From Methanococcoides sp. LMO-2 (GTDB taxonomy: Archaea > Halobacteriota > Methanosarcinia > Methanosarcinales > Methanosarcinaceae), in NCBI RefSeq assembly GCF_038432375.1, contig NZ_JBCAUS010000003.1, forward strand, positions 124,001-188,000: DNA of 64,000 nt. The letters are read 5' to 3'. Each line of letters begins with the position of its first letter. Position 1 is the first letter of the stretch. The position numbers and the translations under genes are program-made. Shown here piece after piece: positions 21,137 through 25,681 of the stretch. The notes below the pieces were generated by a model, which was given only the letters and a program-made list of their open reading frames with translations, was not told the DNA's origin and searched no databases.

Positions 21137-21688
21137 ATGAGAGCATTCCCATTACCTGAAAAGACAGATAACATTCTCCGGGAGAAAGGTCAAAGCGGCT
21201 CATTCTGGGAGGACAGGAAAGACCGGCACCATTGCGGTATCGACCTTTATGCACCAGAAGGTGAACCTATTCTTGCCATAGAGGAAGGGGAAGTTATCGA
21301 CGTCGATATAATGACATCTCCTGAAATGATCTCTTACTGGAATGAAACATATCATATTATAATCAGGAACCAGTCCGGACTTTTCTGCAAATACGGGGAG
21401 CTTGCTGCCTACAATGTAAAGATCGGGGATACTGTTGAAGCCGGCCAGATAATTGGTCATGTCGGTACTGTGCTGAACAACGAAAAGATAGATTGCAATG
21501 CTCCTGAATACATACAAAAGCTGAAGGACAATAATCCCAGCATGCTCCACTTTGAACTCTGGGAATCCGAGCCTATCGTAGAAGACAGGAATTATCTCGG
21601 TGGGAACTGGTTCGGAGATGAACGACCAGAAAAGCTCCTTGATCCTACTGAATATCTCAAAGACATCGAGTCGAGTAAAAATAAATAA
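21137..21688 (+). CDS. M23-fold protein lacking catalytic histidines
   Basis: A 183-residue LytM/M23-type beta-sheet domain. Zinc ligands are retained: H32 and D36 in HCGID, and H138 in MLHFEL. The two catalytic histidines are not: the usual YAHL segment reads YGEL (E88) and the usual HxH reads M136-L-H138. The middle also has the usual GEVIDVD, IRNQSGLFCKYG and VKIGDTVEAGQIIGHVG. No signal peptide is seen, so it is probably cytoplasmic or leaderless-exported. Archaea of this group lack murein, so a hydrolase role is unlikely; it may be a binding module. It converges on the chagasin-domain regulator with only six bases between stops. Confidence 0.75.
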   Translation: MRAFPLPEKTDNILREKGQSGSFWEDRKDRHHCGIDLYAPEGEPILAIEEGEVIDVDIMTSPEMISYWNETYHIIIRNQSGLFCKYGELAAYNVKIGDTVEAGQIIGHVGTVLNNEKIDCNAPEYIQKLKDNNPSMLHFELWESEPIVEDRNYLGGNWFGDERPEKLLDPTEYLKDIESSKNK

Positions 21689-21694
21689 AAAAGA

Positions 21695-23209
21695 TCACAG
21701 GACCCTGACCGTGAGGTCAAGGGCCTGCTCATATCCTGTGAGGTTCATCCCCGGTTGCATGTATACAGCAGAGATGTTCTGCTCGCCTGCTGCAACCGCT
21801 TCGATCTCCCATTCATGCTGTCCATAAAGGGAGCCTTCTGATTGCAGGATGAACTCTTCCCCTCTTATCTGGAGACCGTCCGTCAGGGTCATGTTCCAGA
21901 CATAGGTATCGGCTCTGGACTCGAACATTCTGATAAGCATCCAGTCGCCTTCTTTTATCTCAATGGCATCACCGTGATAGTAGCCGTCAACAATGAATGC
22001 CGGATATAGCTCACTATCGCCTTCCACAATCAGGGTAATTTCGAAATTCTCTGGCACAGCAGCCTCACCGTTCCAGGAATTATATTCTGCCAATATTGAT
22101 TTCTCACCAGTGGACAGTGCCTCAAAGGTCCAGCCATAGACTGAATCATCATCCGCAGTGCTGTATACCGAGTAGTACCCATAGCCGTCTTCCTTTACGG
22201 ACAGGTCACCTCTTTCTGAAAGAGACCAGTGCCCATCCGACGGTGCATCAAGGTCGATACGTACAATGCTTCCGGCTTTGACAGATACCGTGCTGCCACT
22301 ATCCTCTTCCGTGAAAACATGGTCTGCAGGCATCTTCTCGATCTCAGGGAAAGCGAACTGGTCGTCTTCCGTCGGGGCCATGCCGATGGAAATTGCAGCT
22401 ATCACCACACCGACAAGCATCACCGGTAAAAGGTAGCGTTTCACGGACCTCTTTGTTGAATCGCTGGCGTTGTCATAGTAGCGTCCTTTGAGCATCATCA
22501 AAAGGACAGCGAAGAGACATCCCAGGAAGAACCAGAGAGCAATGTTATCGGAAAAGTTCGAGAAGAATGTATGAATGCTGTCCATTAGATGGGGAGCAGC
22601 TTCCTCTGGAACTGTTTTTGCAACTTCCCCTGCAGCCTCATCAGCAGCAAGCTGTGGAGCCATGTCCATTGGAGCTTCACGCATAACTTCATCTTCAACA
22701 GCAGCTTCCATCATTGCAGGTGCTGAAAGCATGCCTCCATTTTGTATGTCAACTGGTCTTGACAGGTACTGAAGCCCGGCAGCACCAAGAAATGCAGCAC
22801 CGATAACACCAATGTATTGCTGTAGCATGCTGATTATGGAAGCCCTGTTGACATTCATGCTTCCCGGAGCTACAACGATCAGTTTCTGCACCGGCTCGTA
22901 TATCTTGACCTCACGGCCCTTCTCACTCCACTTGATCCTGTGAACCTTGATAAGATCAGCTTCAAGCAGGCTATCAATATTGTACTTGATGGTTGTAATG
23001 GAAAGACCGAGCTTTTTAGAAATATCCGTTGCAGACATCGGTTCTTCGGAAAGAAGGTCCAGGATCTTCAGGGACTTCTCATTGGAAAGCGTCTGTGTGA
23101 TCTTCTTTGAATCCTCATTGAGCGGAAGTACAACTACATTGTCCGAACTGTCCTGATCAGTATCCTCAGGTTCACCCTTGTTCTTTTTATCAACATCATT
23201 AGCGGCCAT
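21695..23209 (-). CDS. Membrane-bound wHTH regulator with two chagasin-like domains
   Basis: A 504-residue, apparently three-helix membrane sensor. Residues 35-115 form an ArsR-type winged helix (LKILDLLSEEPMSATDISKK, then TTIKYNIDSLLEADLIKVH). Hydrophobic helices lie at about 130-150, 222-241 and 258-278, so the HTH faces the cytoplasm and the C-terminus faces outward. Residues 295-395 and 405-504 look like two chagasin (inhibitor I42) folds: an NPTTG-like APSDGHWSL, then YGWTFEALSTGEKSILAEYNSW; and YGQHEWEIEAVAAGEQNISAVY. Chagasins inhibit papain-like peptidases, and archaeal versions may instead bind peptides. The gene is last in a lipoprotein-wHTH-sensor operon, 20 bases after the shorter wHTH gene, whose sequence resembles its N-terminus. 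DNA targets are unknown. Confidence 0.75.
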   Translation of the reverse strand: MAANDVDKKNKGEPEDTDQDSSDNVVVLPLNEDSKKITQTLSNEKSLKILDLLSEEPMSATDISKKLGLSITTIKYNIDSLLEADLIKVHRIKWSEKGREVKIYEPVQKLIVVAPGSMNVNRASIISMLQQYIGVIGAAFLGAAGLQYLSRPVDIQNGGMLSAPAMMEAAVEDEVMREAPMDMAPQLAADEAAGEVAKTVPEEAAPHLMDSIHTFFSNFSDNIALWFFLGCLFAVLLMMLKGRYYDNASDSTKRSVKRYLLPVMLVGVVIAAISIGMAPTEDDQFAFPEIEKMPADHVFTEEDSGSTVSVKAGSIVRIDLDAPSDGHWSLSERGDLSVKEDGYGYYSVYSTADDDSVYGWTFEALSTGEKSILAEYNSWNGEAAVPENFEITLIVEGDSELYPAFIVDGYYHGDAIEIKEGDWMLIRMFESRADTYVWNMTLTDGLQIRGEEFILQSEGSLYGQHEWEIEAVAAGEQNISAVYMQPGMNLTGYEQALDLTVRVL

Positions 23210-23229
23210 GTTCGCACCAGAAGGTTGAT

Positions 23230-23559
23230 TTATACAACCATGTTTTTGTCTTCAGAAGAGAATGCAACGACCTTTTTGGCAGGGCCATAGATATTCTCAT
23301 CCCTCTCCAGACCGGAGGATCTGCTCTTTATCTCCACAAGATCGGAATCCATAAGGGCCCTGACCTTGTCTTCAACTTCCACAAAAGGAAGACCTGTCCT
23401 TTGGGAGATCTCACTGACAGAAAGCGGATCTTCAGAAAGCACTTCCAGTATCCTGAAGGAACCCTCTTTTGAAAGCACTTCAGTTACAGTCCTGGACCCT
23501 TCCGAAATGGGAAGGATCAGGAACTTATCAACATTTATGGCATCCGACGCACATTCCAT
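23230..23559 (-). CDS. ArsR-type wHTH protein, paralogue of the sensor's DNA-binding domain
   Basis: A 109-residue soluble protein. RILEVLSEDPLSVSEISQRT and KVRALMDSDLVEIKSR are the winged-helix core, and the segments before (ILPISEGSRTVTEVLSKEGS) and after (IYGPAKKVVAFSSEDKNMVV) align with residues 25-120 of the downstream sensor. It therefore looks like a duplicated cytoplasmic copy without the membrane and outer domains. It may pair with or compete against the sensor for DNA. It is placed in the same operon, between the lipoprotein and the sensor. Confidence 0.8.
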   Translation of the reverse strand: MECASDAINVDKFLILPISEGSRTVTEVLSKEGSFRILEVLSEDPLSVSEISQRTGLPFVEVEDKVRALMDSDLVEIKSRSSGLERDENIYGPAKKVVAFSSEDKNMVV

Positions 23560-23619
23560 AACAATAGTCCCCTTTTTCTCAATTGTAATTATCGATTAGC
23601 TCATCAAATTATCAGATAA

Positions 23620-24123
23620 TCAGATCATTTCCACATGGACATCGAGCTCATGCATTCCGGGATCCGTAGGTACCGGGTTATGCCAGGTACTGTAATAATC
23701 CCCACTTGAAAGGCTTCCATCGCCATCCACATCCACATGAACTGAAAGTGAATATGTCATTCTTTCGTCAAGCTCAGGATGATAGATCATGTATTCCACC
23801 AGCTGAATGTTGTCAGCATCCATGGAAACATCATCAATGGTATCTTCTGAAATAACAACGGATGCAACATCCTGAAGACTTACATCCTCAACTTCCAGAT
23901 AGATAGTAGCATTGGAGAAAGACTCCACAGGTTCGTCAAAGATGATCATTCCATGAACACCGTTTTCTCCCAGTGCCATATCTCCATTATCTTCACCTGC
24001 TGTTCCATCAGCTTCGCCAGTATCATCTGCCTGCCCATCTGAACCGTTTTCAGTGCAGCCCATTGAAAATGCAGCGGCAGTTACTAACAAAAGCGTCAGG
24101 CCTAATACGAAATATTTTTTCAT
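23620..24123 (-). CDS. Secreted lipoprotein, first gene of the sensor operon
   Basis: A 167-residue precursor. MKKYFVLGLTLLLVTAAAFS is a signal peptide ending in lipobox SMGC, followed by an acidic Gly/Asp-rich linker and a beta-rich domain of about 110 residues (ATIYLEVEDVSLQDVAS, then SLSVHVDVDGDGSLSSGDYY). That domain resembles the YbaY/YscW-like beta-sandwich seen in lipoproteins; GDGSLSSGDY could bind calcium. I start at the second ATG because GAGG is ten bases upstream of it and only one base from the first. A good TATA box lies at 24164-24173. It may be the ligand-binding partner of the chagasin-domain sensor; inference from position. Confidence 0.75.
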   Translation of the reverse strand: MKKYFVLGLTLLLVTAAAFSMGCTENGSDGQADDTGEADGTAGEDNGDMALGENGVHGMIIFDEPVESFSNATIYLEVEDVSLQDVASVVISEDTIDDVSMDADNIQLVEYMIYHPELDERMTYSLSVHVDVDGDGSLSSGDYYSTWHNPVPTDPGMHELDVHVEMI

Positions 24124-24163
24124 TTTTGTCATTCCTCATTATTAACTAAATGAACAAATGATC

Positions 24164-24173
24164 CGTAGATATA
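24164..24173 (-). promoter_or_regulatory. TATA box of the lipoprotein-wHTH-sensor operon
   Basis: GATATATATC on the minus strand, about 40 bases upstream of the chosen start, is a good archaeal TATA element and itself palindromic. The 60- and 20-base gaps that follow in the operon hold no obvious second promoter. Confidence 0.55.
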
Positions 24174-24253
24174 TATCATTTATTTAAGCTACAAAATAAT
24201 TCGTAGTCTTCTGAGCAGGAAATATCGTGAAAAAAAAGAAAATTATGGGTTGA

Positions 24254-25051
24254 TCAGGAACTTGTTGACTTGAAAACATCTTCCTTAAGGATGCCATAAT
24301 CATCAAAACTAAAACGCATGGTCATGAAGATACCAATGGCCACCGTCATCACAGTGGATACATAGATACCAACCATAATAGCCATCTGGTACTTGATCGC
24401 AAGGATAGGACTGGAACCTGCGATGATCTGACCGGTCATCATTCCAGGTAATGCAACCAAACCGATCGTTGACATGCTTGCAATTGAAGGTTTCAGTGCA
24501 AGATTGAGACTTTTTCTGGCATAGGGAAGAATTGCTTCATGCTTTTTTGCACCCAGTGACAGGCTGTACAAGTAACGGTTCTCGTTCCTCCTGATCGTAT
24601 CATAGAAGTTACTGATACTCACGATGTTCCCCCTCAGAGAATTACCAAGGAACATACCGAATATAGGGATCAGGTATCTGGCATCAAAGAGGTGGTCAAG
24701 GTTTACCACGAAAGCATTGAAGTAAAGTATCACCAGGAAATTACCTATTATAAACGAAGCAAGTGTCGGTAATAATAGTTTCCTGAGGTCAAGACCGACA
24801 TCATTAATGGTGGAATGGGTTGCTGCAAGAACCATTACCAATAGCCATAGAAGATTTACGATCGAATTGTTAAGGTCAAAGAGCACTGTAAGGAAAACTC
24901 CCACAAAAGCAAGTTGTACGATCATCCTTGAAGCTGAAACGATCGTCTCATGGATTATGCCAAGCTTAAGGTAGTGGCTCACAAGAAGAGGAATCACGAG
25001 CAACAGGAAACAGGCTACAAGGGACAGGTAACCAATGTCAACAGCATCCAT
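24254..25051 (-). CDS. fetB: UPF0014 / FetB-type ABC transporter permease
   Basis: A 265-residue integral membrane protein with about seven hydrophobic helices. Family signatures are SASRMIVQLAFVGVFL, IFGMFLGNSLRGN, LSLGAKKHEAILPYARKSL and GLVALPGMMTGQIIAGSSP. Characterised FetAB in bacteria exports iron and raises oxidative-stress resistance; whether that is the substrate here is unknown. It begins one base after the stop of fetA, so the two are translationally linked. No binding protein is nearby, as is normal for this family. Confidence 0.88.
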   Translation of the reverse strand: MDAVDIGYLSLVACFLLLVIPLLVSHYLKLGIIHETIVSASRMIVQLAFVGVFLTVLFDLNNSIVNLLWLLVMVLAATHSTINDVGLDLRKLLLPTLASFIIGNFLVILYFNAFVVNLDHLFDARYLIPIFGMFLGNSLRGNIVSISNFYDTIRRNENRYLYSLSLGAKKHEAILPYARKSLNLALKPSIASMSTIGLVALPGMMTGQIIAGSSPILAIKYQMAIMVGIYVSTVMTVAIGIFMTMRFSFDDYGILKEDVFKSTSS

Positions 25052-25681
25052 TCAAACACCCACCGGTACGACCTTTACATCTTTATTATCCCATACATCA
25101 TCGTGGGAAATGATCACAAGTGTCCATTCCTTGCGCTCAAGGAAATAATTGGCAACCTTTTCCTTCAGTGCAGCGTCAAGGGATGAAGTGATCTCATCGA
25201 GGAGATAGATGTCCTTTCCGATAAGCACTGACATGATGATACCTATCCTCTGCTTCTCACCCCCTGAAAGGTCCTCGAAATCCATTTCAAGAACATCTTT
25301 CTCAAATCCCAGATAGACAAGAAGCCTTCTGAGCTTGGTCCTGTCCAGTTTTCCTTCATTAAAAGAGTAGGAGAACACCTCCTCGATAAATTCGTTCACT
25401 GAACCTTCATAGATATCAAGATCCTGGGAAACATAAGCTATCCTTTTCCTCGCATCCCAAACGGTATTGCTGTCAAGCAGTCGGTTGTTAAAATAGAGTC
25501 TTCCACTTGTGGGATGAGCAAAACCCATCGGCATCTTCAAAAGTGTGGACTTCCCTGAACCGGACCTGCCTTTAAGCAGTATACGGTCACCTTTGTTGAT
25601 ATCAAGATCAAAGTGAGACAGTACTTCCTTCTCACCATAACGAATAGAGATATCTTCATACTTCAAGAGTTCCTGTCTCAT
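25052..25681 (-). CDS. fetA: FetA-type ABC transporter ATP-binding protein
   Basis: A 209-residue ATPase. Walker A is LKGRSGSGKSTLLK (about residues 36-49), Q-loop YVSQDLDIYE, signature LSGGEKQRIGI and Walker B IYLLDEITSSLD, with switch His in IISHDD. It is shorter than average import ATPases, as FetA proteins are. It is the first gene of the fetA-fetB pair. Confidence 0.88.
   Translation of the reverse strand: MRQELLKYEDISIRYGEKEVLSHFDLDINKGDRILLKGRSGSGKSTLLKMPMGFAHPTSGRLYFNNRLLDSNTVWDARKRIAYVSQDLDIYEGSVNEFIEEVFSYSFNEGKLDRTKLRRLLVYLGFEKDVLEMDFEDLSGGEKQRIGIIMSVLIGKDIYLLDEITSSLDAALKEKVANYFLERKEWTLVIISHDDVWDNKDVKVVPVGV

Follow-up and report, generated by a model that had tools for sequence, protein, structure and literature searches.

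A three-gene operon of Methanococcoides sp. LMO-2 appears to encode a membrane-tethered regulator of exported antiprotease and envelope lipoproteins. In the reading that we favor and regard as reasonably probable, a membrane winged-helix protein (SENSOR) bound to a 20-bp dyad activates these genes, its ectodomain of loop-less chagasin-like domains senses, and a short winged-helix (wHTH) paralogue encoded beside it (SHORT) damps the response. We infer that SENSOR binds this operator and activates from it, given the operator's conservation and distribution; we infer also the signal and the roles of SHORT and of the lipoprotein encoded in the operon (LIPO).

A conserved three-gene operon and its promoter

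The window is the whole 64,000-nucleotide stretch of DNA that was analyzed; features lie on its minus strand unless stated otherwise. In the list of open reading frames, the operon consists of LIPO (a lipoprotein of 170 aa with the lipobox FSMGC; 23620-24132), SHORT (a short soluble wHTH protein of 109 aa; 23230-23559) and SENSOR (a membrane wHTH protein with two chagasin-like domains, 504 aa; 21695-23209). This gene order is kept in 11/11 Methanococcoides genomes searched, among which the SHORT and SENSOR frames usually overlap by four bases, and the single operon of three genes proposed in the original prediction is thereby borne out. Two details of that proposal had to be moved: the LIPO frame begins at 24132, the start given at 24123 being its second in-frame ATG, and the TATA box placed at 24164 does exist, but reads directly as TATATAT at 24169-24175, preceded by TTAAATAAATGA. 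The core of the box, TATAT, is kept in the alignment of the 11 operon promoters.

Directly upstream of the TATA box lies a 20-bp dyad, ACTACGAATTATTTTGTAGC (24188-24207), which precedes the operon in 11/11 Methanococcoides genomes. In the promoter alignment the dyad ACTACGAATTAYTTTGTAGC is conserved beside TTAAATAAA and TATA, with its first base differing in one species; the consensus is ACTWCRAA-N4-WTYGWAGY.

As to the neighborhood, LIPO and SHORT stand directly upstream of SENSOR and a fetB-like gene stands before LIPO in all 11 genomes; in the window this gene is part of a FetAB-like (UPF0014) ABC transporter pair (24254-25681, minus strand). Convergent with SENSOR is a gene for an M23-family peptidase (21137-21688, plus strand), unusual for an archaeon without murein. 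In one Methanococcoides genome the operon's lipoprotein gene carries an in-frame TAA (L112, G022:C11:52250-52741).

SENSOR is the Methanococcoides form of a widespread membrane wHTH protein

Residues 41-90 of SENSOR match the Pfam family HTH_20 (7e-11). AlphaFold2, run on residues 1-290 with 33 sequences in the alignment, models the wHTH domain (residues about 28-116; 22862-23128) with a pLDDT of about 90, and places the recognition helix at 71-83 and the wing at 87-106, with strands 87-94 and 100-106. The nearest solved folds are ArsR-type regulators, archaeal and bacterial (Phr, PH1932 and CzrA, with SmtB also close). SENSOR does not reach the curated cut-off of HTH_metalloreg (26.1 bits vs 55), and it has no cysteine before residue 231. 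The membrane part (22382-22846) is predicted to consist of TM1 (about 122-149), an outer loop, TM2 (223-247) and TM3 (250-276). With HTH_20 and predicted TM helices in one protein, SENSOR is by its anatomy a transmembrane transcription regulator, as the one-component reading of the original prediction supposed. Between species, SENSOR orthologues are 98% identical in the wHTH, 73% in the outer loop and 83% in the chagasin domains; comparison of the core family shows the recognition helix to be invariant across genera.

A relative of SENSOR is present in 107/112 Methanosarcinaceae genomes. The full-length protein occurs in 11/11 Methanococcoides genomes (78-100% identity); in other genera the membrane form measures about 230-430 aa and shares its wHTH with SENSOR, followed by TM1, a loop that varies and TM2. 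In this wHTH-2TM form of the other Methanosarcinaceae genera no chagasin was found. TM1 and TM2 are common to the family core and TM3 is a Methanococcoides addition. Judged by these alignments, SENSOR is the Methanococcoides form of the two-TM membrane wHTH protein of nearly all Methanosarcinaceae.

Elsewhere in the Methanosarcinaceae the core gene sits between purP and truA. In the genome studied here (L149, contig 7, 5195-7284) truA and purP are direct neighbors, separated by 191 bases in which there is no core gene. Since this slot is vacant and SENSOR stands behind LIPO, the core gene appears to have moved and to have gained TM3 and two chagasin domains. Extended frames in Methanohalophilus-like G032 and G037 were considered as fusions and rejected, the extension stopping before truA. 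Natural deletions of the core gene from the purP-truA site are seen in two Methanosarcina-type genomes (L266 in G081; L269 in G091).

The three-gene unit is intact within the genus and restricted to it, while in other genera the wHTH core and members of the lipoprotein family are found separately; at the level of the Methanosarcinaceae the distribution is thus independent, a pattern that the original prediction would have counted against itself. Core and LIPO family, though apart outside Methanococcoides, would nevertheless stay linked by a common operator.

The operator precedes unlinked genes for exported proteins

In Methanolobus-like and Methanomethylovorans-like genomes, a dyad of this type stands before the core gene. 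In the genome of LMO-2 a relaxed pattern is matched exactly at four sites, all before exported proteins: upstream of this operon, of the canonical chagasin lipoprotein, of an alpha-2-macroglobulin lipoprotein and of a secreted protein of 442 aa (for the last three at distances of 62, 76 and 119 bp, respectively). The alpha-2-macroglobulin gene under the operator (L209, contig 7, 2-2986, minus strand) encodes MG, bait-region and TED domains. Strong-scoring sites with one mismatch lie before the genes of three lipoproteins (META, DUF4349 and one of 203 aa) and of an exported protein of 253 aa. The one-mismatch pattern is not commoner in this genome than its reversed control (16 vs 14-15), and the weight therefore rests on the scored sites only; the other one-mismatch sites examined, which are part of the set, score 12 or less.

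For scoring, a matrix was trained only on the core promoters and the promoters of this operon and then applied to unlinked families, with scores of 15 or more taken as hits. The dyad of the operon scores 27.1 and is the only site of at least 12 within the window; among the core gene windows, which belong to the training set, 28/33 scored have the dyad. Outside this set, alpha-2-macroglobulin genes gave hits in 29/30 cases, the exception being a truncated frame, and DUF4349 genes in 30/30, with the site some 45-93 bp from the start in all but one, whose start call is overlong. The chagasin lipoprotein was hit in 24/24 core-bearing Methanosarcina-type genomes, a count that leaves aside the core-bearing G082, whose entry in the set is another paralogue, of 184 aa, that has no site; in a mixed set 19/33 reached the threshold and 22 beat all 200 shuffles. 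YscW-type lipoprotein loci gave 14/19. Control genes gave 0/260 and Markov windows 3/6460, while the 9/29 for purP arise because purP shares its intergenic dyad with the core gene. Many of the scored loci are orthologues and their counts are not independent events, so the strength lies in the several unlinked gene families over several genera rather than in the counts.

The operator's place upstream of unlinked exported lipoproteins across genera suggests that SENSOR is probably the membrane-tethered activator of an antiprotease and envelope-lipoprotein regulon. Neither the operator nor the regulon figured in the original prediction. By its operator, LIPO itself is a member of this predicted regulon, which would explain how a wHTH gene that moved behind LIPO kept its autoregulation.

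The dyad could instead be owned by another transcription factor, with the membrane wHTH gene and the three-gene operon merely among its targets. Sites that outlast the core would fit this: in the complete genome G081, which has no core, a chagasin site survives half degraded (score 17.5), and the MAG G101, in which no core was found, keeps a site as well (20.1); the MAG G093 has neither core nor site. The dyad is also absent upstream of the Methanosarcina core genes checked, where the chagasin gene keeps it. Yet in most genera the dyad precedes the regulator's own gene, and it follows that gene to its new place in Methanococcoides; moreover, after loss of the core the sites could be sustained by soluble Methanosarcina paralogues, whose recognition helix is similar. 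We consider ownership by another factor rather unlikely.

Alternatively, with the same operator and regulon, the membrane wHTH protein could be a repressor that an outside signal frees, the lipoproteins being derepressed under stress. Its fold relatives Phr, CzrA and SmtB act as repressors, and the dyad is only a few bases from the BRE. However, in the promoters inspected the whole dyad lies upstream of TATA, without overlap. This is the position from which archaeal TrmB-type regulators activate, TrmB models placing an activator-like operator upstream of BRE/TATA (PMC4158304), and ArnR, a described archaeal membrane wHTH protein, is an activator (PMC6396743). Repression is thus in our view unlikely, and activation by SENSOR is the reading followed below.

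Both outer domains are chagasin homologues without the inhibitory loops

The Pfam family Inhibitor_I42 (chagasin) matches SENSOR in two stretches, with 2.3e-14 for the protein as a whole, and matches the ectodomain of 11/11 orthologues. In the genome search, domain 1 (22034-22282) scores 24 bits, alone under the Pfam cut-off, and domain 2 (21707-21958) 38 bits, over it. In hhalign comparisons with 18 aligned canonical chagasins from Methanosarcinaceae, domain 1 matches at E 1.2e-12 and domain 2 at E 2.1e-23, and this canonical alignment in turn matches solved chagasin and amoebiasin structures (E down to 1.9e-18). Set directly against the PDB, the ectodomain profile finds only a marginal match, to amoebiasin-1 (E 0.26), so that the link is made by hhalign through the canonical chagasins; AlphaFold2 on the ectodomain, from two sequences only, gives a pLDDT of 31, and the chagasin fold consequently rests on homology. 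The match of the two domains to each other is weak (E 0.005, probability 7%), so that their origin by tandem duplication is no more than a possibility. By these profile comparisons both outer domains are chagasin (I42) homologues, and the membrane wHTH protein with two chagasin-like domains outside, as first described, is upheld by the HTH_20 and I42 matches and the predicted TM helices.

Canonical chagasins of the family, including the lipoprotein of this genome (contig 5; L071 7502-8347), keep NPTTG, GAGG and RPW. The inhibitory motifs NPTTG, GxGG and RPW are absent from both SENSOR domains, which read APSDG, DSVYG and YNSW at these sites in domain 1 and ESRADTY, SLYGQ and YMQPG in domain 2. 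In addition, no PF00112 match, that is, no C1A (papain-family) peptidase, was found in the genome of LMO-2. With the three loops lost and no such peptidase found, direct inhibition or capture of a papain-like enzyme by the SENSOR domains is unlikely, though they may have some role in binding, and the idea that an inhibitor fold here detects an external peptidase in the classical papain-type manner does not hold up well.

One distant chagasin was seen on viral contigs. In G085 a wHTH paralogue has a chagasin gene in its neighborhood, but the two are not adjacent and a link was rejected.

SHORT has lost the residues expected to contact DNA

The hydrophobic core and N-terminal region of the wHTH are preserved in SHORT, with 50% identity to SENSOR at 28-57, but the recognition helix is only 17% and the wing 25% identical. 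T72, T73, K75, Y76, N77, D79, W94, S95, K97, R99 and K102 are near-invariant in the family, and all are replaced in the Methanococcoides SHORT consensus. The mean charge of helix plus wing is -3.7 in SHORT, +3.0 in the cores and +4.4 in the soluble Methanosarcina paralogues, which keep most DNA-contact residues. In the tree, the SHORT sequences group in a single clade whose branch is very long (2.2), and a median dN/dS of 0.31 shows that SHORT is under purifying selection. SHORT had been taken for a duplicate of the DNA-binding part of SENSOR: it does belong to the family, but with its DNA-contact residues lost it is not a simple copy. Lacking the residues of recognition helix and wing, it is more likely a DNA-binding-dead partner, and a dimer partner of this kind would be the simplest reading. 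Several short soluble wHTH paralogues occur in Methanosarcina-type genomes (L153-L172), where they form one well-supported clade with intact recognition helices.

These features bear on a further possibility, that the chagasin domains directly capture an external peptidase or peptide while free SHORT, as a second DNA-binding regulator, tunes the response. The chagasin homology is firm, the genes are laid out for co-transcription and SHORT is maintained by selection, all of which would suit it; set against this are the loss of all three inhibitory loops from both domains, the C1A search just described and the missing DNA contacts of SHORT. We regard this possibility as quite improbable.

LIPO may act together with chagasin domains

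LIPO contains a YscW/YbaY-type domain (PF09619) that barely exceeds the Pfam cut-off (2.7e-5; 24.9 bits vs 22.6). Its lipobox is conserved in orthologues, as is an EF-hand-like calcium loop, DVDGDG (23698-23733, DVDGDGSLSSGD), nearly invariant in 11 of them. In four Methanomethylovorans-like genomes (L129, L130, L131, L132) a single lipoprotein combines the YscW-type domain with a canonical chagasin, and these fusions suggest that LIPO and chagasin domains work together outside the cell. A domain without a Pfam name that follows chagasin in L071 recurs in Methanosarcina-like YscW-type lipoproteins (L136-L143).

A model for the regulon and its relation to known systems

We propose that the cytoplasmic wHTH of SENSOR, probably as a dimer, binds the 20-bp dyad just upstream of BRE/TATA and would thereby switch on alpha-2-macroglobulin, canonical chagasin, META, DUF4349 and YscW-type lipoproteins along with its own operon. 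In Methanococcoides the core gene would have left its ancestral purP-truA site, landed behind the operator-bearing LIPO gene, and there acquired its third TM helix as well as the two chagasin domains that lack inhibitory loops. The latter are probably the sensing surface, with LIPO as their likeliest partner, and SHORT, in which the typical contacts with DNA are missing, is probably a partner of the SENSOR wHTH that dampens the response.

Like transmembrane transcription regulators of the ToxR/CadC type, surveyed in archaea (PMC10269533), SENSOR joins a DNA-binding domain and a TM segment in one polypeptide for sensing at the membrane. It differs in its chagasin-derived ectodomain without inhibitory loops, its predicted antiprotease and envelope-lipoprotein regulon and its co-encoded, putatively DNA-binding-dead wHTH paralogue; chagasin is not mentioned in that survey. 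In layout the nearest archaeal analogue is ArnR/ArnR1 of Sulfolobus (PMC6396743), with an N-terminal HTH and two TM helices, of which ArnR activates surface-structure genes. ArnR, however, carries HAMP and cytoplasmic sensing domains ahead of its TM helices and has other targets, and it is not a family match, SENSOR scoring 12.3 bits against the cut-off of 400 of the ArnR NCBIfam equivalog. HdrR of M. barkeri (PMC11218639) was considered, by description, as a possible relative. With the ArsR/SmtB regulators CzrA, SmtB and Phr, SENSOR has the wHTH fold in common, but it is anchored in the membrane and falls under the metalloregulator cut-off; with chagasin family I42 its outer domains share homology, but they are loop-less and fused to a regulator. 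Bacterial envelope-stress systems of the sigma-E/ECF type exert membrane-linked control over envelope and lipoprotein genes; here, by contrast, a membrane protein would probably bind DNA directly at archaeal BRE/TATA promoters, with no sigma or anti-sigma factor.

The class of regulator is thus already known, while for the architecture, ectodomain and regulon of SENSOR we found no description in open-access full texts on chagasin, alpha-2-macroglobulin, archaeal envelope stress and membrane regulators; in the same literature the three-gene layout is, as originally supposed, without a described counterpart. More tentatively, the operon may represent an undescribed archaeal antiprotease and envelope-stress regulon run directly from the membrane, its sensor rebuilt with loop-less copies of its own product, chagasin, and restrained by a DNA-binding-dead wHTH brake; sensor and effector may then compete for ligand.

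Envelope stress sensing in archaea is poorly known, and here it gains a candidate regulator family, a 20-bp operator and a short list of predicted targets. This list (alpha-2-macroglobulin, chagasin, META, DUF4349 and YscW-type lipoproteins) is testable in Methanosarcina, a genetically tractable genus in which the core gene occupies the purP-truA site and the dyad is present in the promoter of the chagasin lipoprotein. The Methanococcoides operon may be a case in which the sensor of a regulator was made from a copy of its own effector.
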